DNA of 64,000 nucleotides. It comes from Watersipora subatra. Lineage: Eukaryota > Bryozoa > Gymnolaemata > Cheilostomatida > Watersiporidae. This document shows positions 11,128-57,073 of the stretch, piece by piece. The stretch covers positions 27,433,870 through 27,497,869 of the forward strand of contig NC_088712.1 in the NCBI RefSeq assembly GCF_963576615.1. The letters are read 5' to 3'. Every line of letters starts with the position of its first letter. The first letter of the stretch is position 1. The position numbers and the translations under genes are program-made. Under the pieces are notes generated by a model. It saw only the letters and a program-made list of their open reading frames with translations, searched no databases and was not told the DNA's origin.

Positions 11128-12513
11128 TAACTTTGATTGGTACATGGTGGTTGTTCCATAGTCTAAGCCTTAAGTTTCCATACACCGCACTCGCATTTCC
11201 CAATCTCAATAAGATTTCATTATTCAGCCTAGCATTGTCAGCTACAGTGCTTGAAAGATTTATACTGTACCGAAGGTTCACCGTCTATGGTAACTGAGCA
11301 ATGTTGGACTACTCTGCTAAGGAACTTAGGTGGCTGAAAGAGACATTCTGTTTTTCTAATATGGATTTTCAAGCTAAACTGTCTTGCAGTCACCGCCAAA
11401 TGATTGTATAACATCAGATTGGTGAGCTACCAGGGCACTATCATCTGTACAAAGCAGATATCTCACTAGTGTTGTTGTTGTTTTGGTCTTTGATTTGAAT
11501 TAGGCAACATTAAACAGATCTGTTTTCTTTCTGGTCTGAAGATAGACCCTTTTCGAGCTGTTCTTAAAGGCAACTTCAAGAAAAGCAGATAGATAAAAAG
11601 AGATGTCGGTGCAAGCACACATCCTTGTTCTACTCCATTGCTCACTTTAAAGTCCCTAGAGACGTGACCGCCCATAGCTACATTTGCCTGCATGTCTGTG
11701 TGGAGAGCCTCGATGATGCTAATAAATTTATCTGTGCAGCCAATTTTCAACAACCTGCCAAAGACCAACTCTAGACACGGTGTCAAAAGCCTTTTTGAAA
11801 TCAACATAAGCACATATAGTGGGATGTTTTGTTCAGTACATTTCTCCTGCACTTGCTTTAAACAGAACATCATGTCAATTGTACTCCTCCCACTTCTCAA
11901 ACCACACTGAGATTCGGGTAGCACATTCAGAGTGATATGCGCTGTACGTTCAGTAGTACTAGCGATTCAGTAGTAATCGAGAATTTTCCAACAATGGAAA
12001 AAAGGAATATTCTCCTGTGATTTCCACACTCCTTCCTATTGCCTTTCTTAAATAGAGGACCAATAATTGCATTCATCCAGTCATGTGGTACCACCTGTGT
12101 ATCCTAGATAATCTGTATCAGTTTGTATAAACAATCTACTATCTCTTACCTATTATGGTTCCATACCTCATATGGTATACCATCTCTGCCAAGGGCTTTA
12201 CTGTCCTGGAGTCAACCAATTGCCATCATGAGTTCATTCATATCGGGCGAATCATCCAATGATAATACAGTTAGCATCTGTGCTATGTCGTTCCTCGCCG
12301 CCTCATCAAGATCTTCCGGTATGTTCAGCAGCTGATTAAAGTAGTCCAAGAATCTTTTCAAGATTTTATCGCTTTCTTGTAGAACTGTCATTCCATTGTG
12401 ATCCAGTAGGTAGATAAGGCCTCTTGGCTTTGGACTATTAGTTTCCCTTATGCCAGTGTAGAATGCTTTCATGTCTCTCCTACCAGCCGCATTCTGTAAC
12501 CCCTGGCCCTCTC

Positions 12514-36380: not shown

Positions 36381-36432
36381 CACTTGCTACAAATTATACT
36401 TAATATTTACCAGGTGGGTTCGAGTTCTTTAG

Positions 36433-36582
36433 ATCAGTATTCAACTGCCCGATTTTGTTACCCGCCATTATTTCACTCATTCTGCTTTCAACCGCTCCTT
36501 GGTGAGGTGACTTGGCCGACAGCTCTACCTTCAAACAAAGCATACTACATAAAATCATCAACAGTTATGTATCAACTGATAT
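36433..36582 (+). CDS. Candidate plus-strand exon b (unassigned)
   Basis: Acceptor AGTTCTTTAG and a strong donor GTAAGTAAG; 49 codons between split codons, including STARFCYPPLFHSFCF and WPTALPSNKAYYIK. It overlaps a competing minus-strand terminal-exon candidate at 36488-36544, and only one can be right. No family is recognised. Confidence 0.28.
36488..36544 (-). CDS. Possible last exon of the EGF-like gene
   Basis: The acceptor TTTTATGTAG is followed in phase 0, as required after the exon at 41299-41360, by 18 codons (YALFEGRAVGQVTSPRSG) and TGA. Phase and stop fit, but the exon is short and the intron would hold the 3.7-kb satellite. It conflicts with the plus-strand candidate. Confidence 0.25.
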   Translation of the reverse strand, partial: YALFEGRAVGQVTSPRSG

Positions 36583-37045
36583 GTAAGTAAGTGTCACTCG
36601 CTCTCTTTTATCGCATTATTGGCTAGTTTCAAGGCTATGATTATGATTCTGGTCGCTATGAAACGGTTGTTGTTATACGGTTACTCCGAGACAGTTGCTA
36701 TGATACTCCTGCCAAGTTACAGTTGTTATGGTAGTTTTTATACCGCTCATCATAATTATAGTACTAATGATACAGTTCTTATGTTATAGTTAAGATGATG
36801 ACCTTGAACCTTTTAACTTATAATTAATATGCAACCTGTGCCAGCAATATTAAAAATATTGAATTGGTGTCAAGTGTAGCCAAACAAAGTTATGTTTTGT
36901 GAGGATTTTTACATTGTTAGAGTAAAACTGCCTCCTGTTAAATCAGCTGCATATAAAGGAGTCAAAGGAATAAAAAATGTGATAATTCATGTTGGTATTC
37001 TATCAAGAGAGATAATCATAGAGGTCTCATGTTAGAATCTTCTGG

Positions 37046-40000
37046 TTGCTAGGATACGTGTAATAGGATCCAGTTGGTACAAAATATTAGTTTGTGTTCT
37101 TGTTGCTAGGATACGTGTAATAGGATCCAGTTGGTACAAAATATTAGTTTGTGTTCTTGTTGCTAGGATACGTGTAATAGAATAAAGTTTGTACAAAATA
37201 TCAGTTGTGTTCCTGTTGCTAGGATACGTGTAGTAGGATCCAGTTGGTACAAAAATCGGTTGTGTTCATGTTGCTAGGATAAGTGTAATAGGATCCAGTT
37301 GGTACAAAATATTAGTTGTGTTCTTATTGCTAGGATACGTGTAGTAGGATCCAGTTGGTACAAAATATCAGTTGTGTTCCTGTTGCTAGGATACGTGTAA
37401 TAGGATCCAGTTGGTACAAAATATTAGTTTGTGTTCTTGTTGCTAGGATACGTGTAATAGAATAAAGTTTGTACAAAATATTAGTTTGTGTTCTTGTTGC
37501 TAGGATACGTGTAATAGGATCCAGTTGGTACAAAATATTAGTTTGTGTTCTTGTTGCTAGGATACGTGTAATAGAATAAAGTTTGTACAAAATATTAGTT
37601 TGTGTTCTTGTTGCTAGGATACGTGTAATAGGATCCAGTTGGTACAAAATATCAGTTGTGTTCCTGTTGCTAGGATACGTGTAATAGGATCCAGTTGGTA
37701 CAAACTATCAGTTGTGTTCTCATTGCTAGGATACGTGTAGTAGGATCCAGTTGGTACAAAATATCAATTGTGTTGTTGTTGCTAGGATACGTGTAGTAGG
37801 ATCCAGTTGGTACAAAATATCAGTTGTGTTGTTGTTGCTAGGATACGTGTAGTAGGATCCAGTTGGTACAAAATATTAGTTGTGTTCTTATTGCTAGGAT
37901 ACGTGGAGTAGGATCCAGTTGGTACAAAATATCAGTTGTGTTCCTGTTGCTAGGATACGTGTAATAGGATCCAGTTGGTACAAACTATCAGTTGTGTTCC
38001 TGTTGCTAGGATACGTGTAATAGGATCCAGTTGGTACAAAATATCAGTTGTGTTTTTATTGCTAGGATATGTGTAATAGGATCCACTTGGTACAAAATAT
38101 CAGTTGTGTTCCTGTTGCTAGGATACGTGTAATAGGATCCAGTTGGTACAAAATATCAGTTGTGTTCTCATTGCTAGGATATGTGTAGTAGGATCCAGTT
38201 GGTACAAAATATCAGTTGTGTTCTCATTGCTAGGATACGTGTAGTAAGATCCAGTTGGTACAAAATATCAGTTTTGTTCTCATTGCTAGGATACGTGTAG
38301 TAGGATCTAGTTGGTACAAAATATCAGTTGTGTTCTTATTGCTAGGATACGTGTAATAGGATCCAGTTGGTACAAAATATCAGTTGTGTTCTCATTGCTA
38401 GGATATGTGTAGTAGGATCCAGTTGGTACAAAATATCAGTTGTGTTCTCATTGCTAGGATACGTGTAGTAGGATCCAGTTGGTACAAAATATCAGTTGTG
38501 TTCTCATTGCTAGGATACGTGTAGTAGGATCTAGTTGGTACAAAATATCAGTTGTGTTCTTATTGCTAGGATACGTGTAGTAGGATCCAGTTGGTACAAA
38601 ATATCAGTTGTGTTCTTATTGCTAGGATACGTGTAGTAGGATCCAGTTGGTACAAAATATCAGTGGTGTTCCTGTTGCTAGGATACGTGTAATAGGATCC
38701 AGTTGGTACAAAATATCAGTTGTGTTCCTGTTGCTAGGATACGTGTAATAGGATCCAGTTGGTACAAAATATCAGTTGTGTTCTTATTGCTAGGATACGT
38801 GTAGTAGGATCCAGTTGGTACAAAATATCAATTGTGTTGTTGTTGCTAGGATACGTGTAGTAGGATCCAGTTGGTACAAAATATCAGTTGTGTTCCTGTT
38901 GCTAGGATATGTGTAATAGGATCCAGTTGGTACAAAATATTAGTTTGTGTTCTTGTTGCTAGGATACGTGTAATAGAATAAAGTTTGTACAAAATATTAG
39001 TTTGTGTTCTTGTTGCTAGGATACGTGTAATAGGATCCAGTTGGTACAAAATATCAGTTGTGTTCCTGTTGCTAGGATACGTGTAATAGGATCCAGTTGG
39101 TACAAACTATCAGTTGTGTTCTTATTGCTAGGATACGTGTAGTAGGATCCAGTTGGTACAAAATATCAATTGTGTTGTTGTTGCTAGGATACGTGTAGTA
39201 GGATCCAGTTGGTACAAAATATCAGTTGTGTTGTTGTTGCTAGGATACGTGTAGTAGGATCCAGTTGGTACAAAATATTAGTTGTGTTCTTATTGCTAGG
39301 ATACGTGGAGTAGGATCCAGTTGGTACAAAATATCAGTTGTGTTCCTGTTGCTAGGATACGTGTAATAGGATCCAGTTGGTACAAACTATCAGTTGTGTT
39401 CCTGTTGCTAGGATACGTGTAATAGGATCCAGTTGGTACAAAATATCAGTTGTGTTTTTATTGCTAGGATATGTGTAATAGGATCCACTTGGTACAAAAT
39501 ATCAGTTGTGTTCCTGTTGCTAGGATACGTGTAATAGGATCCAGTTGGTACAAAATATCAGTTGTGTTCTCATTGCTAGGATATGTGTAGTAGGATCCAG
39601 TTGGTACAAAATATCAGTTGTGTTCTCATTGCTAGGATACGTGTAGTAGGATCCAGTTGGTACAAAATATCAGTTGTGTTCTCATTGCTAGGATACGTGT
39701 AGTAGGATCTAGTTGGTACAAAATATCAGTTGTGTTCTTATTGCTAGGATACGTGTAATAGGATCCAGTTGGTACAAAATATCAGTTGTGTTCTCATTGC
39801 TAGGATATGTGTAGTAGGATCCAGTTGGTACAAAATATCAGTTGTGTTCTCATTGCTAGGATACGTGTAGTAGGATCCAGTTGGTACAAAATATCAGTTG
39901 TGTTCTCATTGCTAGGATACGTGTAGTAGGATCTAGTTGGTACAAAATATCAGTTGTGTTCTTATTGCTAGGATACGTGTAGTAGGATCCAGTTGGTACA

Positions 40001-40715
40001 AAATATCAGTTGTGTTCTCATTGCTAGGATATGTGTAGTAGGATCCAGTTGGTACAAAATATCAGTTGTGTTCTCATTGCTAGGATACGTGTAATAGGAT
40101 CCAGTTGGTACAAAATATCAGTTGTGTTCTCATTGCTAGGATACGTGCAATAGGATCCAGTTGGTACAAAATATCAGTTGTGTTCTTATTGCTAGGATAC
40201 GTGTAGTAGGATCCAGTTGGTACAAAATATCAGTGGTGTTCCTGTTGCTAGGATACGTGTAATAGGATCCAGTTGGTACAAAATATCAGTTGTGTTCCTG
40301 TTGCTAGGATACGTGTAATAGGATCCAGTTGGTACAAAATATCAGTTGTGTTCTTATTGCTAGGATACGTGTAGTAGGATCCACTTGGTACAAAATATCA
40401 ATTGTGTTGTTGTTGCTAGGATACGTGTAGTAGGATCCAGTTGGTACAAAATATCAGTTGTGTTCCTGTTGCTAGGATATGTGTAATAGGATCCAGTTGG
40501 TACAAAATATCAGTTGTGTTCTTATTGCTAGGATACGTGTAGTTGGATCCAGTTGGTACAAAATATCAGTTGTGTTCCTGTTGCTAGGATACGTGTAATA
40601 AGATCCAGTTGGTCCACTTTATCAGTTGTGGTCTTGTTGCTAGGATTCATGTTATAAGAACCAGTTCATACAATTTATCAGTTGTGTTCTTGTTGCTAGG
40701 ATACAAGTCATATGA
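37046..40715. repeat. 56-bp satellite array, about 65 copies, with higher-order structure
   Basis: The unit begins TTGCTAGGATACGTGTAGTA, continues GGATCCAGTTGGTACAAAAT and ends ATCAGTTGTGTTCTCA. Sequence-specific variants recur about 1402 bp apart (25 units): ACGTGGAGTAGG at 37901 and 39303, and GATCCACTTGG near 38080 and 39482. This shows a block duplication. Another variant pair (CAGTGGTGTT at 38661 and 40231) is 1570 bp apart, so three units were gained or lost. Confidence 0.97.
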
Positions 40716-41298: not shown

Positions 41299-41360
41299 CT
41301 TAGAATCTGAGATGTCCTTAAAGTTGTGACCAACACGATTGAGGGTGAGCTTTGACAGAC
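41299..41360 (-). CDS. EGF-like gene, exon 11 of those found
   Basis: Acceptor TACTGTTTTAG, donor GTAAAT; phase 1 in, 0 out. It reads LSKLTLNRVGHNFKDISDSK. The reading frame stays open, so at least one more exon is required. Confidence 0.52.
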
Positions 41361-44300
41361 CTAAAACAGTAGACATAAGGAGTTAGACAAATATCTAATT
41401 GGGACCACATCATTTCAGAATTCCAAATAAGTCAACCAGTAATATGTTTGTCCTATTAATATTTAGACCATCGGAACAGCAATTTCATTGGTGGTTCAAA
41501 ATAGCAAACAGAGTCAAGTTTTTGTAAATGACCACTTTTACAAAGTATCACAAAAGATTGGTGGTCAAATAGAGAGTGAGATCAGAATGAGATGATGTAA
41601 GTGATATGTTTAGGTTTTAGGTGGTATGTTTAGGCTGTAGGTGGTATGTTTAGGCTGTAAGTGGTATGTTTAGGCTGTAAGTGGTATGTTTAGGCTGTAG
41701 GTGGTATGTTTAGGCTGTAAGTGGTATGTTTAGGCTGTAAGTAGTATGTTTAGGCTATAGGTGGTATGTTTAGGCTGTAAGTGGTATGTTTAGGCTGTAA
41801 GTGGTATGTTTGGGCTGTAGGTGGTATGTTTAGGCTGTAAGTGGTATGTTTAGGCTGTAAGTGGTATGTTTAGGCTGTAAGTGGTATGTTTAGGCTATAG
41901 GTGGTATGTTTAGGCTGTAAGTGGTATGTTTAGGCTGTAGGGGGTATGTTTAGGCTGTATATTAAGAAAAGGTTTAAGACATTTCTCTAAGCAGCTAACA
42001 GATATATCTTATCTTGCCTACCTTTGATGGGTCTCACATCACCTGAATCTTCCATAACAGCTGTAATAAAAATTTCAAACATTTATTTTCTAGTTTTTTC
42101 ATCCGTGATAGACTAAATTCTAACTATCAAAGGTTCGGACAAGTACAATGTGCTTGCTGAAAAAAAATCTAAAGCAGCAGACAACGGACATACAATATTT
42201 TGTTTCTTGTTCAAAAAGAAAAAGAACTTTGTACGATGTTTAGGCTTTAGGTGGTATGTTTAGGCTGTAGGTGGTATGGTTAGTCTGTAGGTGGTATGTT
42301 TAGGCTGTAGGTGGTATGTTTAGGTTGTAGGTGGTATGTTTAGGCTGTAGGTGGTAAGTTTACACTGTAGGTGGTAAGTTTAGGCTGTAAGTGGTATGTT
42401 TAGGTTTTAAGTGGTATGTTTAGGCTGTAGGTGGTATGTTTAGGCTGTATGTGGTATGTTTAGGCTGTAGGTTGTATGTTAGGCTGTAGGTGGTATGTTG
42501 ATGATCAAAACACACTTCAGGTCATAAGTTTGATTTTCATTTAAAGCAATTTCTCTCCTGAACTTCCAACTCAAGACTGCTAGTGTACTAGTCTTTACTG
42601 TAATATGAACTCTGTCTGTCTGTTTGTCTTTCTGAAGCCATTGTGGTTTTCAATGGACATACGTGGCCCTTATTATAGTAAGGACTAGCTGAATGCCCAA
42701 CATTGCATATGTAATAAATGTTTGCACAAAATATTTATCGCTAATCGACATATACAACATTTACTTTTATAACTTTTAAATGAAGGTGTTTGTTTATTTC
42801 TGTGTGTGCAATAAGTTTAATTAAGTTTATGCTATATATGCAAAACTTTATAGCATTTTGGGGAAGTCTGGGCATGTTTTCTTCTAGGAGTTTAAACATG
42901 GTGGTTGAAGCGTGCCTATTTAAAACCAATCTCCAGGTTGGCAGGTATAATAAGTATGTACACAAGTATTCTATAGTATGGCTAGGTAGTTAGCGCGCCT
43001 GTCAACGAAACTGAAGTTTGTGAGTTCAATTCCAGTGCAAAGCAGTTTTTCATACGCATGTTTTATTACTATAACTGGACATACGAACGACAGACCAACA
43101 AACACTTGGATTCATATATTATATATATTAGTACCCTGGCAGTCTTGTGTGTCGTGAAATACCCTCTGATGTATCAATAAAGCACAGTGAATATCTTATG
43201 CGCAGTACTTCTAACATTCTGAAAGGCGAATGAATAATAGGTGAAGGCGATTGTGCCAAGCAGTGGTTCTGAATGTCATGAGTTCGAATCCTATGCGAAG
43301 CAATCTGTTTTCTAACCACCAACCATGGCTTCAGACGAACAGACAGACACACATCTCCTATATATTATTTCCTATTTTGTAATCATATGACAGCCATATG
43401 GCTCTCTGCTCCAAAAGATCAGAATATCAATTGTAATGATTTTTTAAAAGTTCTAAAAAATCATCAAAATTAAGGTTTATGGTTGCTGCCGCATGACCAT
43501 AACTCTATGGAACAAAATATTTTACAATTTAGCTTTTGTAGTTTGTGAGCTGCCTATTTGGCTGCGATCAAAAGTATATTTAAATTTTCCAAGTTGGTTT
43601 GTCCATTTTTTCAAGGTTTACTCATTTTGGCTGTATGATATTAGTAACAACGTTTGACAGCCGGTAAGGTTTCTTATTGATAAATTTTCACTAGTGAAAT
43701 TACTTGAATATTACAGTGACGAGAGCACAACTATAGACACAACGTAACACTATAAAACTTTCTCCCAACACTCATACGAACAGCTGAGCTGACAGTAATA
43801 AAACATATACATTATCTAATTATATTGTCTCCAAAGTCATTTAGCTGAATTTAGTTTCAGCGTGCGACGGAGTTGTCAAACCTTTAAAAATGAACTCGCA
43901 CAAAATTTCATCAGTCTATCATCTTTTCTTTTGAGCATTTTAACCGCGATCACGTTTTACTGATTCTAATCTTGAATCATCCTGGCATTCAGATTACCTC
44001 GAACATCAAAAACATTGCAAATGATAGAAAAATGAAGCTTATACCGGTAACAGCGCATCTTAGGTCGGTACAACATGCATACAACGCATGCACAACGGAC
44101 ATGCAAGGCACTTGCAATGCACCAACATTGTGGATACAGTGCGCATACACTATCATCACAACACACATACATGTACAACGGTCTGACAGCGCATGCTTGT
44201 TGAACACCAGGCATCAAATAAGGATACATCGTTGGAGCCAAGTTTGTCTGATGATCCTACGTTGCGCTTAAATTGCACGTGCGGCAGTAGTTTGCTGCAA

Positions 44301-47300
44301 GTATCGTGTGATAGCATTGCTTGTGTGTTTGTGTTTACCGTGTCACATTGTGGCGCATGCGTTGTTAATTACTTGTGTCGGCGTTATATCCACCAATTTT
44401 TGTGCATTACAAGTGCCTTGTATGTCCGTTGCGCATGCGTTCTATGCGCGTTGTACTGATCTAAGACACACCATTACCCTTATACCTCATACCATGTATG
44501 ACCAAATGATTTTAGCCATGATCCATTACAGCCAAATCTGACGCATTAAAGATCCACAACGAGCTGAAGATGTGCATTTTTATTTTTTACTAAACATAAA
44601 TATGCAATTACTTAAAACAAGGCCTCAAACACGGTTTAATCATGTTTTTGCTTATATAAATAATTTGACTATAGATCAGTGAATAAATTTGCTGCATTAA
44701 ATATGTCTTATATCAGTGAGAAAAATGATGAGTGAGCTTTGACATCACAATACTTTCAAAATGCGGTTTTTTGCTACTTCTAGCAATTCTTAATGTTCAC
44801 GAAGATGAGTATTTGTGAGTCGTGTTCTATGATTGCTTTTTACAAAATTCATTGCTGAAAACAATGAATTTACAAAGATCTTAAGAAAAGTTCACACAAA
44901 AATTTTTAAGCTAAATTTTTAAAAAATACTTCAAAAATCTTTTTGACAGGCAACTGAAAGGTTCATAAAAAACTGCCAAGATCCGGATCTAGGTCTGCAA
45001 TTTGGCCATAGCTGCCTTATACCTACCTTCATTTAACAAGGGAAGATGAGCAACAGAGCTGGTTATTCTGGAATGAGCTGCATGCATAGGCCATAGTTCC
45101 GCTGGTACCTGATCCCGACCCACAGGTCCTCCTTTAGTTTCTACTGTACTCATTCTAAACTCTCAACTTAGATGGTATTCTTGGAATGTATGCTGTACCT
45201 ACTAATAATCACTGGCCCACGCTACGTCCTCAAGTTGTCTTACGTAGCTAGAATCCTATTTTGCGTATAGCAAATCCTATTTTGCGTATAGCAAATCCTA
45301 TCACCTCCAGGTGTCCTACACAGCCAGGATGTTATTTAGTGTATAGCCAATGTTATCATCTATATTTGTTCTACCCAGCTAGGATGTTACATGTATCTAG
45401 CATATAGCAAATGCTATCACATCCAGTTGTCCTACACAGCTAGGATGTTATCTGATGTATACCCAATCTATCACGTCCATTTGTTCCAGTTGTCCTACAC
45501 AGCTAGGTGTATTATATGTATCTAGCATATAGCAAATGCTATCACATCCATTTGCCCTACGCAGCTAGAATGGTATCTAGCATATAGCAAATGTTATTTG
45601 CTCCAGCTGTTCTATACAGTTAGTATGGTATCTGGCCTATTCCTAGCCTGTCTTGACAAACTGTTAATTCTGCAGAGTTGTTCCCCGTGTAGTGGAACGA
45701 GCATAACAACAGCTTGTCACAATACGCACTGCACCTGATGCGTCAGCTGCACTGAAAGGGAGTTGTTCTCTTCTGTCTATGCAGCTTGGCTGCAATGTTG
45801 CCGGTCGCTCCATTGGTAATCAACGGATTTAGCCCAAAAATTTATGTAGAAAAAAATAAGATCACAATGTTTAACCAAAGACCAGTCTCTGCGGTAATCT
45901 TTAGTAGAACTTAAGAACTTAGGCAACAACAGCAACTAAACATGTTGTTATTTGTGCACTCAGTCAATTTTGTTCTTACTGATTGTTTTTAATTCATTTT
46001 AATCTTAGGTTCTACTAAAGTTTACCGCAAAGGCTGGTCTCTGGTTAAACTTTTTTATCTTATTTTTTACATAGATTTTTGGGCTAAATCTGTTATGATT
46101 ACCAATGGAGCGACCGACAACATTGCAACCAACCACATAGACGAAAGACAACAACTCTCTTTCAGTGCAGCTGATGCATCAGGTGCAGTCTGTATTGTGA
46201 CAAGCTGTGGTTTTGCTCGGTCCGCTTGATGGGGGACAACTCCGCAAAAACCACAGTTTGTCAAGACAGGCTAGCCTATTCCCAATGTTACGTGTATTTT
46301 TGCAGAGACATTCTTCTTTCGCTGTAGATATATTGTGTACAGAAAAGACACTGTTCCATTCTCCGACCCTTTTATTAATAAAAGCATAAATCTTTCATTT
46401 CTGATGAACTAAAAAGTAACTATACAAGTGAAAAGTTTAACTTAGATCGTTATCTTCGCCTGAGTGAAATTCTTTCTCAGTAATAAATAATGGAATTCTA
46501 TTATGTTATTCCTTAATGAGTAGAACCAATAATAAATATTGAAACCTGAATATTCTATGATAGCAATACTGTGAATGACTCCAACGTAGAAGTCTCAATC
46601 TACTTGCTGCCTGTTGCCAATTCCTCTCACACATTCCGCAACCTGTTCTCACACATCGGCCCTCCGAATCCTGGCAAGCACGAACAGGTGGCTACTGTAT
46701 CAATTCCAGAACGGCCTCTTGAGCATGTCCCACCGTTCATGCACTCCACATTTACCGAGCACCTGACTGGAAATGAAGGTATTTGTGGGAATAGCGGATT
46801 GTCAACATACATGTATATATCATAAGTTATTTCTGTGCTTGTTATATAGAACTTACAGCTGTGAGAATATTAATTCTTTTAATAAATGCAATAAGTACAA
46901 TAACACTTCCGTGCTCTGCCATTGCACTAACATAAATATACTAAACTTTAAGTGTAAAATTTGTCAATTTATAAATTGGGTAAGTTTTAATCAATTTACA
47001 ATTTCCTTGATTTACTGATTAATTTACAGAATGACTGAAATTTTTAGGCATTTTACAAATTGACCAAATTCACACGTTTACTGCCGCATATATAAAACAT
47101 TTGGCTTTAATTATTAATGCACAAAGTAGCTTCATTAGAGCTAGCAAACAAATAATTATGGCAAACGGCAACCCTTTGCAACTCATCCAAGCATACCCAA
47201 ATCAGCCATTTGATATTAGCATCTGTTCAACTGTATATAATCCTCATATCTTCAATCAAATTACACACATCATATGTTGTATTTATTACACATTACATGT

Positions 47301-50300
47301 TGTACTAGTTACACATTACATGTTGTACTAGTTACACATTACATGTTGTACTAGTTACACATTACATGTTGTACTAGTTACACATCATATGTTGTACTAG
47401 TTACACATATGTTGTACTAGTTACACATCATATGTTGTACTTATTACACATCATATGTTGTACTAGTTACACATTATATGTTGTACTAGTTACACATCAT
47501 ATGTTGTACTAGTTACACATATGTTGTACTAGTTACACATCATATGTTGTACTAGTTACACATCATATGTTGTACTAGTTACACATCATATGTTGTACTA
47601 GTTACACATCATATAGATTAATATATAGATTAATATTCCTAGACTTGCACAGAGGAGAGTTATAAAAAGTTTCAATGGCCATTGTGAATAATATTAATAT
47701 TTTTACTATTTGTGAATGATGGCTCATAATGTCGTTGAAATAATAATATAATTCTCTCATTATCAGCCAATCACTGACTACTACTCTCATTAATCAGCCA
47801 ATCACTGACTACATGTATGGCTAACTTCCGTGTCAGTTGATATTAAGGTCTGTGACATAACCCATTCCTCTCAATAGTAATAAGTTAAACAATAGAAGCA
47901 TGCATATATCTGATAGTTGATGCTCTACTTTATGTAAATTACTTGTAATATTTCTTGTCAAGGTTTCAGGCAATCTGTAAAATAAATGGACTGACCTTTT
48001 GATCAATTTGTAAATTGAAAATTTTAGTCATTTTACAAATTCACTGGTTCTACAGATTGACTGTAATGTATATGAAAATGGTGGATTTTGGTTGCATAAA
48101 GCAGAAGGTCTAAAGACCAACATGGAAGATAAACTCAAGTCTAGATACATCTATGCTAGATACATCTATGCTAGATACATCTATGCTAGATACATCTATG
48201 CTAGATACATCTATGCTAGATACCTCTATGCTAAATACCTCTATGCTAGATACCTCTATGCTAGATACCGCTATGCTAGATACCGCTATGCTAGATACCT
48301 CTAAGCTAGATACCTCTAAGCTAGATACCTCTATGCTAGATACCTCTATGCTAGATACCTCTATGCTAGATACCTCTATGCTAGATACCTCTATGCTGAT
48401 AGTTTCAAGGAAATAATATTGTGCTGACAGCTTAATCTAGACTTAATCAAATTGTGTGCTAGATTGCAGTTGTTAGGCGCAGGTGTTAGGATATATAAAT
48501 ATTACATTTTCTAATACGCCAGAACAGCTAAAAGTAGACAATTAATGACTAGGTCCTTCAAAGTAAATCATACAGCTGCTTACATGCTTCGCATCGCCGC
48601 CCAGCCACGTACGGGTCAACGCAGTGGCATACTGCTCCGAGACATTGGTTCTCACATCTTCCTCCATTCAGACAACCATTCTGTTCTGCACAATAGTCTC
48701 TTGGTGGGCCCGTCGGACCTGCAAGTTGATACATCAGACCTTAAACTTGTACATGTAGGTGTACAAGTCGGTGTTCTAGAAGGTTCCCTATTAGCTGTAC
48801 TCAACTGTGCATGATTAAGTGTATAAGTACATTTGTTAGTAGGTGTACTAGCAGCTTACTGGTGAGTGTACCAGCAGCTTACTAGTGAGTGTACCGGTGG
48901 GTGTACCGGTGAGTGTACCGGTGAGTGTACCGGTGAGTGTACCGGTGAGTGTACCGGTGAGTGTACCGGTGAGTGTACCGGTGAGTAAACTAGTGAGTGT
49001 ACCGGTGAGTGTATTAGTGAGTGTACTAGTGAGTGTACTAGTGAGTGTACTAGTGAGTGTACTAGTGAGTGTACTAGTGAGTGTACTAGTGAGTGTACTT
49101 GTGAGTGTACTTGTAGCTGTACTAACATATTTCCCAGTGGATGCACTAGCAGGTACGCTGGTAGATAAGTGTGACAGGTGTATAAGTGCGTTTTGCTAAT
49201 AAGTGTGCTAGTAAGTGTACGAACAGATGTAACAACAGTGAGCTAGTATGTGTACTAATAACTATAAAAATGAGCAAATTTGCATGTGTAGTGGCATCAA
49301 ATAACTCTAAATGTCAAATTATTATTGATGGATATGCCCATATTGTTTTTCAGGCTTTTAAACAACTTTTCATTTTCATGGATGTAGTCTATGCTAGCTT
49401 CTCTAGAGTCCTAGTGAATCACATGGAATCTGGTCACTCACAAGGGTCGCCTGAGATGAATCTTCCGTTCTCATCAACAGACGCTACCGGGCGCCTATTG
49501 GGAATGCGAGGCGGCAGCGTTGGCGCTGCTGTCATTTCATTCGTCACATCATTTTCTTCAATGCTGTTTTCTGTTGTTACATCATCTTCAGCGAACTCAA
49601 CAAGCCCTACAGTGGCAGCATTCGTTACGGCAGCTGGTGGTGGATCCTAAAACGAGTTCAAGTGCATGAGTCACCAACAGGTGAAGTTAGAGAGTGAGCT
49701 TGCAAAGAAGCTACAAACACCAGCTTTTAAAACAGTCCGAGAAATATTTTTAAAGATGAACTAGCACATAATTTTAGTAGAATTTTAGTAGAACTTGCAC
49801 AAAATTTCAAAATGTATCAGTATTTTATTATAATTTGCAATTGTTTTAGATTTGATCTGGGTGCCAGGACATTTAAAAATTAAAATTGACAGAACTTGAT
49901 CACGGTTAAAACACTCAAAAGAAAAATAAATGCCAAAATTATATCGCTAGTTGTTATTGTAGCGATAGTTGATACCGGCTATCGCGTTCAAGTTGCAGCG
50001 TTATGCATTTCTATTGAGTTGGGCATCTCTATTGAGTTGGGCATTTCTATTGAGTTGGGCATCTCTATTGAGTTGGGCATCTCTATTGAGTTGGGCATCT
50101 CTATTGAGTTGCGCATCTCTATTCTGTCTATTTTATAATCACAACTTTGCTTGACTTGAGCGATTCAACTGCTATCGATCATGTTTTGACAATTTTAATC
50201 TTAAAGCATCTTGGCAGTCAGATCACCTCAAACATTAAAAAAAATCGTAAATAATAAATAAACATCAAGACTTTTTGATAAAATCTACTAAAATTTTGTG

Positions 50301-53300
50301 CTTTAATCAAATATACTGTCAAATATACTGTCAAATATATATATAATATATATATATATACTGTCTTACAATTACACCTGTACACCTGTACTTACAATCA
50401 TCTCAGTGCACAAATTTCTCAGCACACAAAATGAAATTTTAAAAACATTTGAAGCCATATTTAAAGTAATTTCTATCATGCAATATTTTGGTTTCTCAAA
50501 ACATTGTCATCTTTTAAGCACGAGTAAAGCTAAAAATTGAACATAAAAAATATGAATAAAAATGGAAAAATTCATAGATTGAGCTCATTTAAACTTTACC
50601 TAGTATAACTTCGAGTAAATTCCACATTGCTCCTCTGGCAGAAACTACCTTCGCACGAGGATGTAAACTGCACATACAATTTGAAGCAGTGCATGTACTT
50701 TAATTTTTAATTTTTTAGTTTTAATTTTTATCTTCAGCTCCTAATAATCCTTAATCTAGCATAATCGAGAGCAAGCAACTCTACGGAATAATTATATTTT
50801 TGCATTCATTTATAACATGCAGTTTTATCTTATTCAATAATGAAGGCCTATAAAGTTTAATTTTACAATCAAGGGCAGGCAACTCCACGGAATGGTTTCA
50901 TTTTAAATATTCATCAAAAGCATGCAGTTTCATTTTATTCAAATCTTATCCTAAATTTCTTAATAAAGGGTTAGCAATCCAACAAAATAATTTTATTCTC
51001 ATCCTTCAGCTATAGCATGCAGCTCTATCTTATTAAATAGCCAAACTTTAAATAAGAAAACACCATTGGATTAGTTATCATCTATTATCAAACCATAAGA
51101 CAAGTTCAAGTTGTGTTCGCCAGCGCTGTAACTAATGCAGTCATGTTGTTTTTAACTATTTTACTGGCCATCGCTAACAAAATAATATATAATATATATA
51201 ATATATAAATATAATAAAATTGTAAAAATAAATTATTACATAAGGTTGTTCTAGGCATAAAGTGGTCATGATGTTTATGTCTCGGGTATACCCAGCCATA
51301 AGCACAGCACTAAGTGCTTGAAACCATAATTCAAGGGAGATAAACCTTGACAGGTTTGGAGTATTATAATTATGCCATAATAGAAACTATTTGTTATTTC
51401 TTTTCACGCATTTCTGTATATGAAACTATAGTTTTTATGTAATAAATCTGTATTGAATAAATATATTTAATTTTTGAATGTTTATTAGGCTAGAAATTAA
51501 ATAATTGATTTATCAATTGATATTAGGGAAATCTTTTGAACAAATAAAATAAAATTTTTAGTTTATATTTTTGAAAATGATTACAAAATTAAAATTAATG
51601 TTATATCTGAATTTATCTATTAGTAAAATAACTTGTGCATCTTTTCTGCAATATAATTTGCCTGGAATAACATGAAAGTTTTGTAAATAAACATCATTAA
51701 AAATATGACATAGTCCATACAACTTAATGAAATATCTCACATAAAGAAATAGCCACATTTTACAATACGATAGTTTGATATTATCTATAGAATTATTTTA
51801 CCTCTATAAAAAGGAAGTCTTTGCTCGAAGTTTCACATAGTATGAAGTAAAACAGCTTACAGACGGAATTCGGCTCCTCAGTATAACACTTCAGTTTATA
51901 ATAATCCCGCAGTATTACATTTGAGTATATAATAATCCTGCAGTATTACATTTAAGTATATAATAATCCCGCAGTATTACATTTGAGTATATAATAATCC
52001 TGCAGTATTACATTTGAGTATATAATAATCCTGCAGTATTACATTTGAGTATATAATAATCCTGCAGTATTACATTTGAGTAAACAAGTTTTTGACAATT
52101 TGTTTTAAAAGTTTTCTGGCAAATAAACTTTAGGCCTACTGGATACATAATAAGGAAGCCTTTTTACCTACCTGGTTGCTTTGTTGCTGGGCCATCAGCC
52201 AAAACCTAAAATAGAATAAGATGATAATTAAATTCCTCTCAAATATTAACTCTTCTTTCAATAGATAAAATATTTTGCAGACTTACATCTGGGAAAGTGT
52301 TGCAACCGTTGGCATAACTTCTGCTTCTTCAATTAGTTCTTCACTTCCAACTTGCGGCTCCCTCAACTCCGATTGTAGGACTGTAGATGAGAAGGATTTA
52401 TAGAAACAATATTATATTTACTTTCTCTACACAACCAACAGTGAAACTAAACCAGAGATAACTAATTAACAACACAATTCATAGGTAAGACCGCTCATTG
52501 ATAAGGTAGCCAATCAAAGAGACAACTCGCCAGCGAGACAGTCAGCCAACCTGTATATTTAGAGTACTGTTGTTTACGGTTTTTGCTTAACATTTTATGT
52601 ACATGGCATTATCATCTAGTAGAGCAATAGAAATAGATAAATCGCAACAAGTCAAAACAGCACGCTTCCCCTTTTTTAAATTTAACAGCAATATATGTTA
52701 CCTCGATGTAGTGCTTTAATATGATGCATTAAAAAATTACATAATAAAATTTCACAAATGTTTCAAGATGTTTCAAGAAAATAGAAGTTCAAATCTACTA
52801 GTTATTGCCCCAAGCGGAAAAATGAATGTGAGAAGACAACTCTACAGGAAAGTTCAAGCTTTATTAATCTCTGCATCACATACCTATGGTACATTCATAG
52901 CCTGAGAACCCTGGAAGACAATCACACCAGCAAAGGTTTCCCTGTGATAGGACTCGACCACCATTCTTGCAGGTGCCTATAATATAGATAAATAAACAAT
53001 GAAATGCTAATTTACGAAGGGTATTTGAAATCTGGAAGCACCTATGGTCAAACCTCTTTCTATAAGTACAGTCAAACCTCTTTTTATAAGTACAGTCAAA
53101 CCTCTTTTTATAAGTACAGTCAAACTTCTTTTTATAAGTACAGTAAAACCTCTTTCTATAATTACAGTCAAACCTCTTTCTATAAGTACAGTCAAACCTC
53201 TAATGATAAGTACAGTCAAGCCTCTATGTATAACCACAGTTTGAAATTTAAAAGCGGAATTTAACCTCCAGCTACAAACACAGTCAAGCTTGTATGTACA

Positions 53301-56300
53301 TTACAGCCAAACCTCTACTCGCGATTACCACAATATATAAATTTTGCAAAATTAGGTCAAAACTATGTGCAAATATTTAATACCAGGTGCAAAGAAATTC
53401 CCATCATACAACTATTATTTATGAGCTTGTTGAGTGTCTTTGAAATATTTATGGATGACTGGGGAGTTACCCTCTCTAGAGTAATTGCTTTACTGATTAA
53501 AAGATGGCAGGCAAAAAATTTACTGAAAACATTTCTAGCATCTGCAGAATGCATTTGCTACATGGCAAGTGTTGTGCTGTTGTAGCCTACAAACAACTAT
53601 TTATAAAGATCTACCGACTATTTTTAAGGACCTCAGGCTATTACTTCTAAGTTATGTATCTAAAAACATGCTTTTATCAACTGCCAATGAAGCCTACACT
53701 AATTAAGACAAAAACTAGTTTAATATTTTTTTTCGATTGAAGTATCTGCTCTCCATCTGTGTAACAGGATTTTTTTACCGCAAAAGCTATAAATATTTTA
53801 AATGTAATAAATAAATCATTGAAATGAGTCGACAAGGTGTGAAATCATGTACAAAAATTGAGGCTAGTTTTGCAACAGGTGAAATCATGAAGTTATGAAA
53901 GTTTCCACCTACCATCTGGACACATCATCAATTATGTAGCCGAGCGGCCAATGTCTTCCAGCAACTCAATTAAAAGAATTCATTGATCAGATATTAGCAA
54001 ACTGGCAGACAAGGGAAATAACTGTGTTAAATAATATGATTCACACGTTTGGTATTTTGCTTTATTTTGAGTTTTGCTAGTAGATATTATTGGGCTGATC
54101 ATGATAGTGCAAGATTGTGGGCTACAAGTGTAGACTGGAATCCAGCTACAAAGTATGTGCCCCCAAACTGGTTTAAGGTTCGGAGCTAAGGAGATCAAAC
54201 AAACAAAGACAATGCGACTTCCTAATGACAGTTTTTGGAAATGCTAATACAGACTCTTTCTATGATGATGCATCTATGGCTGATGATTCTATGAGTGACG
54301 GCTTTATGGATGTTGTTTTTATAGATGCTGCCTTTATAGGCGTTGAATTCATAGGTGACACCTCTGTAGATAATGCCTCCATAGGTGACACTTTCATGGA
54401 AGCTATCTCAATAGATTGCTCCTTTATCAGCACAACCTCTATAAGTGGTACATTTATATTTGATACCTTTATAGGAGACACTTAATAGATGGCACCTTTT
54501 AAGGTGGCACTTCTAAAGGTGAGATCTATAAGTGAAACTTGTAAGCATGACCTCTCTAAAGGTCACATTTAAAGGTGACCACTCTAAAGGTGACACATTT
54601 AAAAGTGACATTTCTAAAGGTGACATCCATAAGTGACACTTCTGAAGGTGACATTTATAAGTGATACCTCTAAAGGTGACACCTCTGAAGGTGACATCTA
54701 TAAGTAACACCTCTAAAGGTGACATCTGTAAGTAACACCTCTAAAGGTGACATCTATAAGTAACACCTCTCTAGTTGGCAGGTAGGCTCAAGCTCAAAAT
54801 ATTTAAGCTGAAAAGGTGAGTATAACATATACTATATGTATATATTCCATATCAGATCTTTTTTTCTATCAAAGATGCTTGTAGCTAAAATAATTATATT
54901 ATTTGTTTAAATCACACAAAACTTTAATGCAACTAGTTTTGAAGTTACGATGTTGTTAAGTTTTTCCAATTTATTATTTCTTGCTTCATCCCAGAGACTT
55001 TCTAGCTCTATCAAGACCTGTCAATTGATTAGTTATTGTCTTGAAGTCTTCAAAGTAAAGTTTATTTTTTGTTTTAGTCTGAACATTTTCATTTATTGTG
55101 TTTCATTGTGTGATATATTTTTAACTGCGATTTTTATATTCATGTCATAATGACTTCACAGTTTTGTATTGCATAGACTTGTGGTTGGTATTTCTGGAGA
55201 TATTCAGGTTGCACCCAGTACATATGGCGTATGAATTTGTTCTCACCAGGTTAAAATCTGTGAGAATATGTCACTTAAATCTGCGCAATTATGTTACATA
55301 CATCAGAAGGCATAATTCGCATACATTTGTGTGCACAACTTGATACCTGGCCTGGTAATTTACACCATTTAGCGGATTATGCTCCTAATCTAATTTACAT
55401 AATCTAATCTAGCTATACCATCAATCATCTCGGTAAATACCATTCTTGTGTCAGTAAGGCTGTGATCAAGGAGACATGTTTGGCACCAACACATTGAAGA
55501 ACATGGGTGCTAAATAACACCTTCACTAAAAACAGCGTGTTTGCACGTTGTGTCTCATTGGCTAATATTAAAGTAGCTTAATAACCAGCTTGTATTTTAA
55601 TAAATTGGTGGATATGAAAGCGATAGCGGCTAATCTGTTAGCCTTAGGATTGTTAGACTAATTCTTGCCTAGTAAACACATAAAAAGACAACATACAGAT
55701 ATTATTAGCCTATGAAGGTGCTCAGGTCAAACATTGCGTAATACAAACCCATTAAATCGTCAACATTTAAAAGGCTGACTCGCCAACAGTTAAAAGACCA
55801 TGATAGAGCAAAAATAATCACAAATAATAAAATAGTAGTTGGTTGAAACAGCAAACTTTCTAAAGAGTTCAATGTTAGTAAAATATAAGCACTTTAATGT
55901 ACATAAATCCCAAAATATGTCAAAATCTAGTAATTTTAAAACTAGATTGTTTTAACCTAGAGTGACTTTGTGAAAGGTTTCAAACAATTGGCATATGTTC
56001 AGCCTAACAGTTAAATAGGTTTTCATAGAACCAAGTCTAAGATCTCTACAATGTTGGTTAGCTAATGAATTAGTAATGCTAAATGCTATGATGACGAGCC
56101 AAACTTTGTCAGTTTTATTTACTACAAACATCAGATCTAAAGTGCACACCACTGTATGCTGCTGTAGCAACATTTCAAACATTGAAAATGTAAGAAAAAT
56201 TTTCAACTTAATCAGCCTTTTACAATTTCATAACCAAGTTTATTTGAAGTTAGTTTTCATTTGATTAACTTAGATATTTATTAAATTAAGGTAAACATTC

Positions 56301-57073
56301 AGAACATGATTTTAAAATGTTGGCTAAGCTAGATGTGAAAAAAAGACTCGAGCTGTTACAATCAGCCGTCAGCACATAATCATGTTGTTGAGCTTGCAGC
56401 AGGACAAGGGAGACAAATCTAAATGTTGCCATAGATATTTGTTTTAATCACTCGACACAACCTATTATCACGCATGAGGAAAAAAACATGGCAGTTACCT
56501 TGCTGTTCATAGATTGCAATACAAGTTGGGTTGCCTTCCGGATCAAAGCCTTTTCTGGTACAGTCAAACTGAAGGCTGAGGTCCGTATTTGTTTCTAAAA
56601 TTCATGATTACATCTATGAATACAACATAATATTATACACAACATCCCGGAGACATGAACACATTGATGTTCCATTCCATGAATACAGCATAATGAAAAC
56701 AACATAAATGTATTGACAGCTATACCTAAATATATAAGACGATATTCTAAGCAATATCCAGGGAATATAAATGCATTGGTATTTAAGTTGTGAGTATAAC
56801 ATTTTATGCATGAGATCAAATCTCGTGTGGTGTAGTCTCTTTTTAACTACCAACCGTTGTCTCTGCTAGACGGATGCAGACAGCTAAATTAAGATTATAT
56901 CACACCCAAAAAAATACCATAGAAATATCACACAAACCTGTACAAGGGTTGTAATCGTCTCCTTCGTAAAACTCAGAAATAAATGTTTGCAGGCCGCAGC
57001 GTTTAAGCACGGGTCGACCCGCTGTACACTCCCAGTATTGACACTTGGTCTGTTGATCACTTATGTATCTAAT
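41299..57073 (-). CDS. Cysteine-rich protein with EGF-like domains, partial gene, 11 exons
   Basis: Minus-strand exons 56938-57073, 56499-56594, 52884-52976, 52287-52380, 52172-52205, 49442-49646, 48584-48718, 46643-46766, 45027-45154, 42022-42060 and 41299-41360 all have AG/GT borders, and every junction phase agrees. Together they give 382 codons without a stop. The order is: a cysteine-containing segment (CQYWECTAGRPVLKRC) that may resemble a chitin-binding peritrophin fold; an EGF-like domain over exons 2-3; an acidic, Thr/Pro-rich linker; two EGF-like domains (CLNGGRC and CMNGGTC cores); and a hydrophilic tail. No membrane segment is seen, so an extracellular or matrix role is inferred. 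The start exon is missing. The gene is not recognised as a named orthologue. Confidence 0.72.
41600..41962. repeat. 20-bp minisatellite, block 1, about 18 copies
   Basis: Unit GTGGTATGTTTAGGCTGTAA, with G/A variation at the last positions. Confidence 0.95.
42022..42060 (-). CDS. EGF-like gene, exon 10 (39 bp)
   Basis: Acceptor TTTATTACAG, donor GTAGGC; phase 1-1. It reads VMEDSGDVRPIK. It sits in a 270-bp island between two blocks of the same 20-bp minisatellite. Confidence 0.5.
42236..42500. repeat. 20-bp minisatellite, block 2, about 13 copies
   Basis: The same unit as block 1 (GTGGTATGTTTAGGCTGTAG), on the same strand, resuming after a non-repetitive 270-bp island. Confidence 0.95.
42501..42960. 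other. Intronic sequence, SINE tail-like piece
   Basis: CTGTCTGTCTGTTTGTCTTT and ATGGACATACGTGGCC near 42610-42670 resemble, in part, the reverse complement of the 43-kb SINE tails. Nothing else is seen. Confidence 0.4.
42970..43380 (+). repeat. Two adjacent tRNA-derived SINE-like copies
   Basis: The first has an A-box-like TGGCTAGGTAGTTAGCGCG and a B-box-like GAGTTCAATTCC about 45 bases later. The second has the B-box GAGTTCGAATCC near 43280. Both run into tails with GACAGAC(CAAC)-type strings and AT-rich ends. No intact cloverleaf, so not functional tRNA genes. Confidence 0.5.
43900..44033. mobile_element. Foldback family C, single right arm
   Basis: GAGCATTTTAACCGCGATCA and CTAATCTTGAATCATCCTGG match the right arm of the 62-kb and 19-kb copies. 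The next element starts right after it. Confidence 0.65.
44034..44490. mobile_element. Inverted-repeat MITE
   Basis: Arms of about 90 bp. GTACAACATGCATACAACGC then CATGCAAGGCACTTGCAATGC on the left; GCATTACAAGTGCCTTGTATG and CGTTGTACTGATCTAAG on the right, as the reverse complement. GC-richer than its surroundings. No coding capacity. Confidence 0.75.
45027..45154 (-). CDS. EGF-like gene, exon 9 (tail)
   Basis: Acceptor AGAGTTTAG, donor GTAGGT; phase 2 in, 1 out. It reads MSTVETKGGPVGRDQVPAEL and WPMHAAHSRITSSVAHLPLL. Hydrophilic, no cysteine. Confidence 0.6.
45236..45632. repeat. Imperfect 60-70 bp tandem repeat
   Basis: Units around CCTACACAGCTAGGATGTTA and GCATATAGCAAATGCTATCA, about six copies with length variation, in the intron between exons 8 and 9 of the EGF-like gene. 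Confidence 0.75.
45644..46273. mobile_element. Mutator-like foldback element with 9-bp TSD
   Basis: A perfect 20-bp end, TAGCCTGTCTTGACAAACTG, is repeated inverted at 46254-46273. Similarity continues along arms of about 270 bp (blocks CCAATGGAGCGACCG and TTTAGTAGAAC). The flanking GCCTATTCC (45635-45643 and 46274-46282) is an exact 9-bp duplication. Long arms plus a 9-bp duplication point to the Mutator superfamily. No transposase. Confidence 0.87.
46643..46766 (-). CDS. EGF-like gene, exon 8 (EGF-like domain)
   Basis: Acceptor CTTCATTTCCAG, phase 1 in. It reads RCSVNVECMNGGTCSRG and ATCSCLPGFGGPMCEN, a canonical EGF. The donor is taken as CAG/GTTGCG; a second choice, GTGAGA 14 bases further, keeps the same phase 2 and would add about five residues. 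Confidence 0.82.
47270..47612. repeat. 23-bp minisatellite, about 15 copies
   Basis: Unit TTGTACTAGTTACACATCATATG, with shorter 18-bp variants lacking CATCA. Confidence 0.93.
48140..48398. repeat. 15-bp minisatellite, about 17 copies
   Basis: Unit TCTATGCTAGATACC; variants ATCTATG, CGCTATG and CTCTAAG form runs, showing local homogenisation. Confidence 0.95.
48584..48718 (-). CDS. EGF-like gene, exon 7 (EGF-like domain)
   Basis: Acceptor CAACTTGCAG, donor GTAAGC; phase 1-1. It reads YCAEQNGCLNGGRCENQ and CLGAVCHCVDPYVAGRRCEA: an EGF pattern with an extra cysteine pair between Cys3 and Cys4. Minisatellites lie on both sides within 300 bp. Confidence 0.82.
48850..49135. repeat. 12-bp minisatellite, about 22 copies
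   Basis: Unit GTGAGTGTACCG in the first half and GTGAGTGTACTA in the second half; a clean switch between variants near 49010. Confidence 0.95.
49442..49646 (-). CDS. EGF-like gene, exon 6 (Thr/Pro/acidic linker)
   Basis: Acceptor CTCGTTTTAG, donor GTGAGT; 68 codons, phase 0 in and 1 out. It contains AEDDVTTENSIEENDVTNEM and APTLPPRIPNRRP, a low-complexity extracellular linker likely to be O-glycosylated (inference). An opposite-strand ORF of similar length exists, but splice signals and phase favour the minus strand. Confidence 0.65.
49790..50310. mobile_element. Foldback element, family C, copy with internal array
   Basis: The left arm (AATTTTAGTAGAACTTGCAC and AAAATTAAAATTGACAGAAC) is mirrored by the right arm (TTTGACAATTTTAATCTTAA and CTACTAAAATTTTGTGC). 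The loop contains the 18-bp array at 50008-50120. Confidence 0.75.
50008..50120. repeat. 18-bp minisatellite, about 6 copies
   Basis: Unit TCTATTGAGTTGGGCATC, in the loop of the surrounding foldback element. Confidence 0.92.
50600..50667 (-). CDS. Possible alternative exon of the EGF-like gene
   Basis: Acceptor TATGTGCAG, donor GTAAAG, phase 0 in and 2 out; reads FTSSCEGSFCQRSNVEFTRS. It could follow exon 5, but its outgoing phase does not fit the exon at 49442-49646, so it is left out of the main chain. Confidence 0.25.
50668..51880. other. AT-rich intronic sequence
   Basis: No exon is recognised. Three related paragraphs near 50770, 50880 and 51000 share CAAGCAACTCTACGGAATAA-like strings (roughly 115 bp spacing), probably an old degenerate tandem repeat. 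Confidence 0.4.
51895..52085. repeat. 31-bp minisatellite, about 6 copies
   Basis: Unit AATCCTGCAGTATTACATTT then GAGTATATAAT; it ends about 90 bp 3' (on the minus strand) of the 34-bp exon. Confidence 0.93.
52172..52205 (-). CDS. EGF-like gene, exon 5 (34 bp microexon)
   Basis: Acceptor TATTTTAG, donor GTAGGT; phase 2 in, 0 out. It reads FWLMAQQQSNQ after a split Met. The size is small, but both borders and both phases match the neighbours. Confidence 0.5.
52287..52380 (-). CDS. EGF-like gene, exon 4 (acidic linker)
   Basis: Acceptor TCATCTACAG, donor GTAAGT; phase 1 in, 2 out. It reads LQSELREPQVGSEELIEEAE and VMPTVATLSQ. Confidence 0.62.
52884..52976 (-). CDS. EGF-like gene, exon 3 (EGF core)
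   Basis: Acceptor TATATTATAG, donor GTATGT; phase 1-1. It reads GTCKNGGRVLSQGNLCW then CDCLPGFSGYECTI, with the typical EGF pattern CxNGG and CxCLPGFxGxxC. Confidence 0.85.
   Translation of the reverse strand, partial: APARMVVESYHRETFAGVIVFQGSQAMNVP
53045..53235. repeat. 24-bp minisatellite, about 8 copies
   Basis: Unit ATAAGTACAGTCAAACCTCT then TTCT. Read on the other strand it contains AGAGGTTTGACTGTA, the same motif as the intron 3 array of B3GAT3. Confidence 0.92.
53260..54489. other. Intronic sequence, degenerate 15-bp repeat at the end
   Basis: No exon is recognised. From about 54250, 15-base units of the type GATGCCTTTATAGGC produce repetitive ORFs; these merge into the array at 54490. 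Confidence 0.4.
54490..54775. repeat. Degenerate 14-30 bp minisatellite
   Basis: Units such as CTCTAAAGGTGACATCTATAAGTAACAC-type pairs (CTCTAAAGGTGACAT followed by CTATAAGTAACAC). Confidence 0.88.
54776..56498. other. Intronic sequence, nothing recognised
   Basis: AT-rich, with no family-recognisable exon or element boundary. Confidence 0.4.
56499..56594 (-). CDS. EGF-like gene, exon 2
   Basis: Acceptor GAATTTTAG, donor GTAACT; phase 1-1. It reads TNTDLSLQFDCTRKGFDPEG and NPTCIAIYEQQ. The last cysteine probably starts the EGF domain completed by the next exon. Confidence 0.68.
56938..57073 (-). CDS. EGF-like gene, exon 1 of those found (CxxxxC-rich segment)
   Basis: Acceptor TCTATTCTGCAG, donor GTTTGTG; phase 0 in, 1 out; only this phase is open. 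It reads ISDQQTKCQYWECTAGRPVL and KRCGLQ...YNPCT. The cysteine and aromatic spacing is loosely like peritrophin-A (CBM14), which is a weak call. An upstream exon with the start must exist. Confidence 0.7.

Follow-up and report, generated by a model that had tools for sequence, protein, structure and literature searches.

Secreted EGF proteins are common, and the closest described systems for the gene reported here are the EGF-like proteins (PF00008, PF07974), the CBM14 chitin-binding domain, the EGF tandems of Notch and the molluscan shell matrix proteins with EGF or chitin-binding modules. To our knowledge, the skeletal and cuticle proteins of bryozoans have been little studied. Among the top-ranked titles and abstracts of a literature search, we found no bryozoan protein of this layout or matrix kind, a result that does not prove absence. 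Here, we analyzed a 64,000-nucleotide (nt) stretch of the genome of the bryozoan Watersipora subatra (contig NC_088712.1, here C5; C5:27433870-27497869), referred to as the window; coordinates are given in window numbering unless they carry a contig prefix. With high confidence as far as the gene model itself is concerned, the window is predicted to carry exons 2 to 9 of a nine-exon gene, here called gene A, with a 353-residue secreted-type product. Its parts follow in the order signal-like peptide, six-cysteine module, EGF1, 113-residue acidic Thr/Pro linker, EGF2, EGF3 and stop. The novel part is the combination of the module with two noncanonical EGF modules, which is a variant and not a new kind of protein.

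An earlier note on the window had described a single modular gene of secreted type, assembled from eleven exons. These eleven minus-strand segments (57073-41299) are each flanked by AG and GT, their phases join, and together they give 1146 nt, or 382 codons, with no stop. All of this stood, as did the modular secreted-type gene. The unity of the chain was not confirmed: its exons 9 to 11 resemble the beginning of an adjacent gene, and the chain most likely represents two neighbouring genes fused in the prediction. The case teaches that agreement of phase by itself can merge two adjacent genes. The proposed parts of gene A are as follows.

68433-68305, minus strand: E0, signal-like peptide and module cysteine 1; outside the window, 4.3-4.4 kb beyond its end
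56938..57073, minus strand: E1, module cysteines 2-5; acceptor phase 0, donor phase 1; aligned with paralogues
56499..56594, minus strand: E2, module cysteine 6 and the first cysteine of EGF1
52884..52976, minus strand: E3, remainder of the noncanonical EGF1; paralogue comparison
52287..52380, minus strand: E4, acidic linker; open frame and splice sites only; no counterpart in the other models
52172..52205, minus strand: E5, 34-nt linker microexon, the least certain exon; supported only by its open frame and splice sites
49442..49646, minus strand: E6, acidic linker with Thr and Pro; at its 3′ end lies base 1 of the Cys codon that all five aligned members have split
48584..48718, minus strand: E7, EGF2, an eight-cysteine variant; one Cys is the split codon at the E6/E7 border
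46627..46766, minus strand: E8, terminal exon with EGF3 and the stop TGA (46629-46627); Pfam EGF above cut-off
46371..46376, minus strand: AATAAA, candidate polyadenylation signal of gene A, 250 nt past the stop

E5 was needed because E4 and E6, if both are used, would otherwise break the frame (frames were judged by eye). In the nearest paralogue, the E2 content and part of the E1 content lie in a single exon (C5:39820104-39819896). The linker, counted from EGF1 to the split Cys codon and modelled from open frames and splice sites only, comes nearly entirely from E4 to E6 and is as acidic and Thr/Pro-containing as the earlier note had stated, with 20 Asp or Glu versus 5 Lys or Arg, 10 Thr and 11 Pro in 113 residues. 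Outside the signal peptide, the product has 26 cysteines, arranged 6+6+8+6.

A six-frame search of the whole genome (783,720,542 bases in 239 contigs), with the 382 residues as the query, returned 30 places: the window's own exons, a second locus on C5, pieces on two other contigs (C7 and C10), and weaker hits of EGF type. The second C5 locus (C5par, about C5:39.815-39.823 Mb) matched query residues 11-79, 224-266 and 261-311 in the same order and on one strand, with E values of 1.4e-6, 1.3e-5 and 4.6e-9 and identities of 41, 51 and 56%, respectively. Paralogue models were built by hand from start to stop for C5par (263 amino acids [aa]), C10 (428 aa), C7a (two copies; 214 aa) and C7b (218 aa). 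Each model starts with a hydrophobic, signal-like first exon, after which the modules follow in a shared order. The common layout comprises the signal-like exon, the six-cysteine module, a noncanonical EGF1, an intron that splits a Cys codon and an eight-cysteine EGF2; EGF3, with six more cysteines, is present in gene A, C5par and C10 and absent from C7a and C7b. Sequence comparison indicates that gene A is a member of an unnamed family with at least six loci in the W. subatra genome, the family being defined from the same members that have its layout.

Five members (gene A, C5par, C10, C7a and C7b) were aligned, with the Thr/Pro tail of C10 shortened and with the near-identical C7a duplicate, a partial third C7a copy (16.6528-16.6536 Mb), C7:49.5949 Mb and C7:19.830 Mb excluded. 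All 20 core cysteines were invariant in this alignment; six belong to the N-terminal module, another six to EGF1 and the remaining eight to EGF2. Once those of the signal peptide had been subtracted by eye, every cysteine lay within a module (26, 26, 26, 20 and 20 in the five members). Before EGF2, all five have an intron in phase 1 that interrupts a Cys codon (T/GT or T/GC); the paralogues have a short spacer between EGF1 and EGF2, whereas gene A retains the interrupted codon, between E6 and E7, but with a long linker ahead of it. Two further statements of the earlier note, a Cys-rich N-terminal segment and three EGF-like modules, agree with the six module cysteines shared by all five members, the aligned paralogues and the Pfam EGF match.

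At C7:16.6475-16.6578 Mb, two near-identical inverted members lie about 8 kb apart with the partial third copy between them, an arrangement that probably reflects a recent inverted duplication. A six-cysteine module at C7:49594858-49595058 matched C7b in a local search (E 6e-7) and had no convincing EGF neighbour in 16 kb. The place at C7:19.830 Mb has a module and EGFs and is, like C7:49.5949 Mb, a more distant relative. The match lists also contain other places with weak scores.

Both ends of gene A were modelled with the help of these paralogues. In the 27 kb upstream of the first exon of the earlier chain, 23 open reading frames (ORFs) have a signal-like start, and E0 was picked among them for the fit of its phase and of its first cysteine: it ends in phase 0 at a GTAAGT donor, which is what E1 requires, and brings the first cysteine of the module. 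The end of E0, LCFTRQPSNGRI, joined to IRYISDQQTKCQYWEC, aligns with ICFTADENGGLITFIADARNAC-WYWQC of C5par, and E0 and the first exon of this nearest paralogue share the pattern CFT...NG.I..I.D....C.YW.C. The signal peptide inferred earlier is matched by a signal-like exon, but one outside the window, at 68433-68305. Secretion was judged from hydropathy alone; the best 19-residue mean hydropathy of the signal regions was 1.87 in C10 and 2.3-2.4 in C7a and C7b. In none of the six models did any 19-residue stretch starting past residue 25 exceed a mean of 1.2, and no later membrane-like span was seen.

At the 3′ end, exon 8 was read through, ignoring the internal GT at which the earlier chain had left it, and then ends in ...GGPMCENRLRNV-stop, the TGA sitting seven residues past the last EGF cysteine. 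C5par terminates similarly (...GLMCELSILNVS-stop). The C-terminal ends read CENRLRNV-stop in gene A, CELSILNVS-stop in C5par, KRCEPGPQ-stop in C7a, KRCEPGPL-stop in its duplicate and KRCETSKKK-stop in C7b, while C10 continues from EGF3 into a Thr/Pro repeat before its stop. All six models stop shortly after the final EGF or its Thr/Pro tail, and AATAAA or ATTAAA occurs less than 500 nt past the stop in four of the five loci (gene A, C10, C7a and C7b).

The Pfam check of the joined protein had been named beforehand with two families in mind. EGF was found above its cut-off in the 382 residues (E 1e-4, best stretch 267-301), and CBM14 was absent at E 10; EGF_2 and hEGF gave weak matches under their own cut-offs, and no further family appeared at E 10. 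The 353-aa model scored 23.3 bits for EGF (cut-off of 21.5) with the best stretch at 310-344, which is EGF3, and EGF2 scored 17.1 bits for EGF_2, under the 22.1-bit cut-off. Among the five members, EGF was found in three and EGF_2 in four at E 10. No Pfam family spans the whole arrangement, in keeping with the unusual layout noticed earlier.

Gene A thus resembles EGF-like proteins in that EGF3 passes Pfam EGF, EGF2 matches EGF_2 below threshold, and both E3 and E7 have phase 1 at either end. It differs in the cysteine spacing of EGF1 and EGF2, which is not the usual one, with the third cysteine of EGF1 shifted beside C4 and two additional invariant cysteines in EGF2, and the EGF modules are joined to an unassigned six-cysteine module. 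Over EGF2-EGF3, the best sequence match in PDB is a Notch1 construct (E 9.5e-10), a likeness to the Notch EGF tandem; unlike Notch, the gene A product is short and without a membrane-like segment, and the other domains of Notch were not found by Pfam in the gene A models. With the molluscan shell matrix proteins, gene A shares the secreted type, Cys-rich EGF modules and a possible calcified-tissue context, whereas Pfam gives no CBM14, VWA or comparable domain in gene A.

Our preferred reading is that gene A and its family are as described above and that they have a structural extracellular role; we assign it a probability of roughly 0.6. The product would be exported and its 26 cysteines would pair as 6+6+8+6. 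The rigid, small disulfide modules may bind partners by protein-protein contact, and the extended acidic spacer would separate them and contribute to binding. Such a protein could be a structural or adhesive component of the extracellular matrix, most plausibly of the cuticle or the organic sheath of the skeleton; the cheilostome cuticle is described in a passage of PMC11358562 as composed of mucopolysaccharides, proteins and chitin. Several observations weigh against this reading. The gene A model is drawn from frames, splice sites and paralogues, that is, from sequence evidence only. E4 to E6 are without a counterpart in the paralogues, and E5 measures only 34 nt. The signal regions are less hydrophobic in gene A (1.46) and C5par (1.10), and the latter is not above another stretch of the same protein (1.16). 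In C5par, neither AATAAA nor ATTAAA occurs within 1 kb of the stop. Finally, the protein may have a signalling or immune role instead.

If it signals, the product could be a secreted ligand or modulator that acts through its EGF modules in the manner of EGF receptor or Notch systems, and the Notch1 construct at the top of the PDB matches would fit this. EGF3 is of the standard type and, in all three members possessing it, contains the motif C-x4-[ST]-C, the O-fucose consensus. Notch matches are, however, expected for any tandem EGF pair, and the lack of a transmembrane-like segment, the noncanonical EGF1 and EGF2 and the absence of EGF3 from two of the five aligned members all speak against a signalling protein, which we consider improbable. 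The N-terminal module, which the earlier note had labelled as possibly chitin binding, appears to be a six-cysteine module of no recognised family. Were it a divergent CBM14 (peritrophin-A; PF01607) module, the protein would organise the cuticle or skeleton through chitin binding. It shares with CBM14 the six cysteines, an aromatic residue between C2 and C3, a basic residue or Gln before C4 and a secreted-type context, and chitin is named among the components of the cheilostome cuticle in PMC11358562. The label nevertheless failed in both the Pfam and the profile-profile comparison. None of the five modules, scanned singly, matched any Pfam family at E 10, in a scan whose filters discard most very weak matches, and the module profile found no match in PDB at E 10. 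When compared by hhalign with ten CBM14 stretches from the same genome, the module reached 0.3% (P 0.11) versus 99% for CBM14 halves as the positive control and 0.1-0.2% for EGF comparisons as the negative one. Its spacing is C2-x4-C3 and C4-x17-C5 in five of five members, whereas eight of the ten CBM14 stretches have x5 and x12 at the matching positions and the other two are without C3. We rejected CBM14 identity on the Pfam null and the negative profile comparison, and a divergent CBM14 is an unlikely description of the module. That gene A is a decaying duplicate which has lost its expression seems least probable; its introns are rich in tandem repeats, which would fit such a copy, but nine open exons, 26 cysteines in place and AG/GT at each modelled splice site argue against it.

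The structural reading of gene A also has to be set against the gene structure of the earlier chain. A single gene could join E1 to E11 and onward and encode an extended product whose tail is not EGF-like, or the joined form could be a minor read-through isoform. This would be consistent with the phases agreeing across eleven segments, with the good splice sites of E10 and E11 and with a weak match that covers EGF3 and part of the tail (query residues 258-368 at C1:53928133-53928447; 29%, E 0.03). Every other model, however, stops shortly after the final EGF or tail, and both splice sites of the E8/E9 step are poor. The donor leaving exon 8 (CAGGTTGCG) scored 3.76, and 22 of the 23 modelled donors scored higher (leave-one-out); the acceptor of exon 9 scored 1.38, with 21 of 23 modelled acceptors higher, the two lower ones at 1.07 and 1.12 and the nearest above at 1.40. 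The splice matrices were derived from our own hand models, and these two sites were not included. Agreement of phase at this step is near chance: the 5.35 kb past exon 8 held 3 candidate phase-2 exons versus 1.2 (standard deviation of 1.2) in 30 dinucleotide shuffles, with thresholds set from exons 9-11, so a match in phase is to be expected here. Exon 9 begins with one base followed by an ATG, with a TGA in frame four codons upstream. The tail (exons 9-11) had no match in the four fetched paralogue regions or, searched alone, in the rest of the genome at E 1. The codon-usage log-likelihood of E9-E11 against the coding exons was uninformative, the comparatively well-supported E0 being the lowest of 13 under a model trained on Cys-rich EGF exons. 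We regard a single gene as quite improbable, and it is very likely that E9 to E11 form a separate gene, gene B, with the following candidate parts.

45027..45154, minus strand: exon 9 of the earlier chain, most likely first coding exon of gene B; ATG 45153-45151, in-frame TGA upstream
42022..42060, minus strand: exon 10 of the earlier chain, assigned to gene B; good splice sites
41299..41360, minus strand: exon 11 of the earlier chain, assigned to gene B; good splice sites
36411..36528, minus strand: candidate for the following exon of gene B, entered in phase 0 and left in phase 1; supported only by an open frame and splice sites

A 116-residue piece of gene B (exons 9-11 and the next candidate) matched no Pfam family, and a genome search at E 1 returned only their own places and no paralogue. 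No convincing further exon was found beyond 36411.

If the structural reading of gene A and its relatives is correct, the family bears on how bryozoan skeletons arose. In the passages of PMC9484238 that address this question, neither bryozoans nor phoronids are reported to have yielded a certain block of shell genes, and the authors favour the view that mineralised skeletons arose secondarily in some clades of bryozoans. A secreted-type Cys-rich family provides concrete candidates for this question. More speculatively, the module could be an undescribed extracellular domain that expanded together with EGFs into a lineage-specific toolkit for cuticle or skeleton; the linker of gene A would then have been gained by new exons, and gene A would be a candidate mineral-interacting protein.

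A 56-bp minisatellite of about 65 copies (93% match) occupies 37040-40704, between exon 11 of the earlier chain and the candidate next exon of gene B, and many further minisatellites occur across the window. The interval between E8 and E9 contains an imperfect inverted repeat (45643-46274) with arms of 139 nt at 45643-45781 and 46136-46274 that are 86% complementary. It holds three nested shorter pairs and looks like a palindromic insertion in a presumed intergenic stretch.

Elsewhere in the window, two minus-strand ORFs (2428-2595 and 3930-4199) jointly match EF-hand_7 (E 9.1e-11) and resemble MCFD2. On the plus strand, opposite to gene A, an ORF at 22925-23500 matches glycosyltransferase family 43 (E 8.5e-11) and represents a piece of a glucuronyltransferase-like gene. 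Another plus-strand ORF, at 31480-31842, has a Tc5 transposase DNA-binding domain (E 6e-5) and is likely a transposon remnant. At 11469-11966 on the minus strand lies a reverse-transcriptase-like ORF (RVT_1, E 0.0014; 18.9 bits, under the 29.6-bit cut-off), and two ORFs near it have a weak Pfam match or none; this is probably a decayed retroelement.

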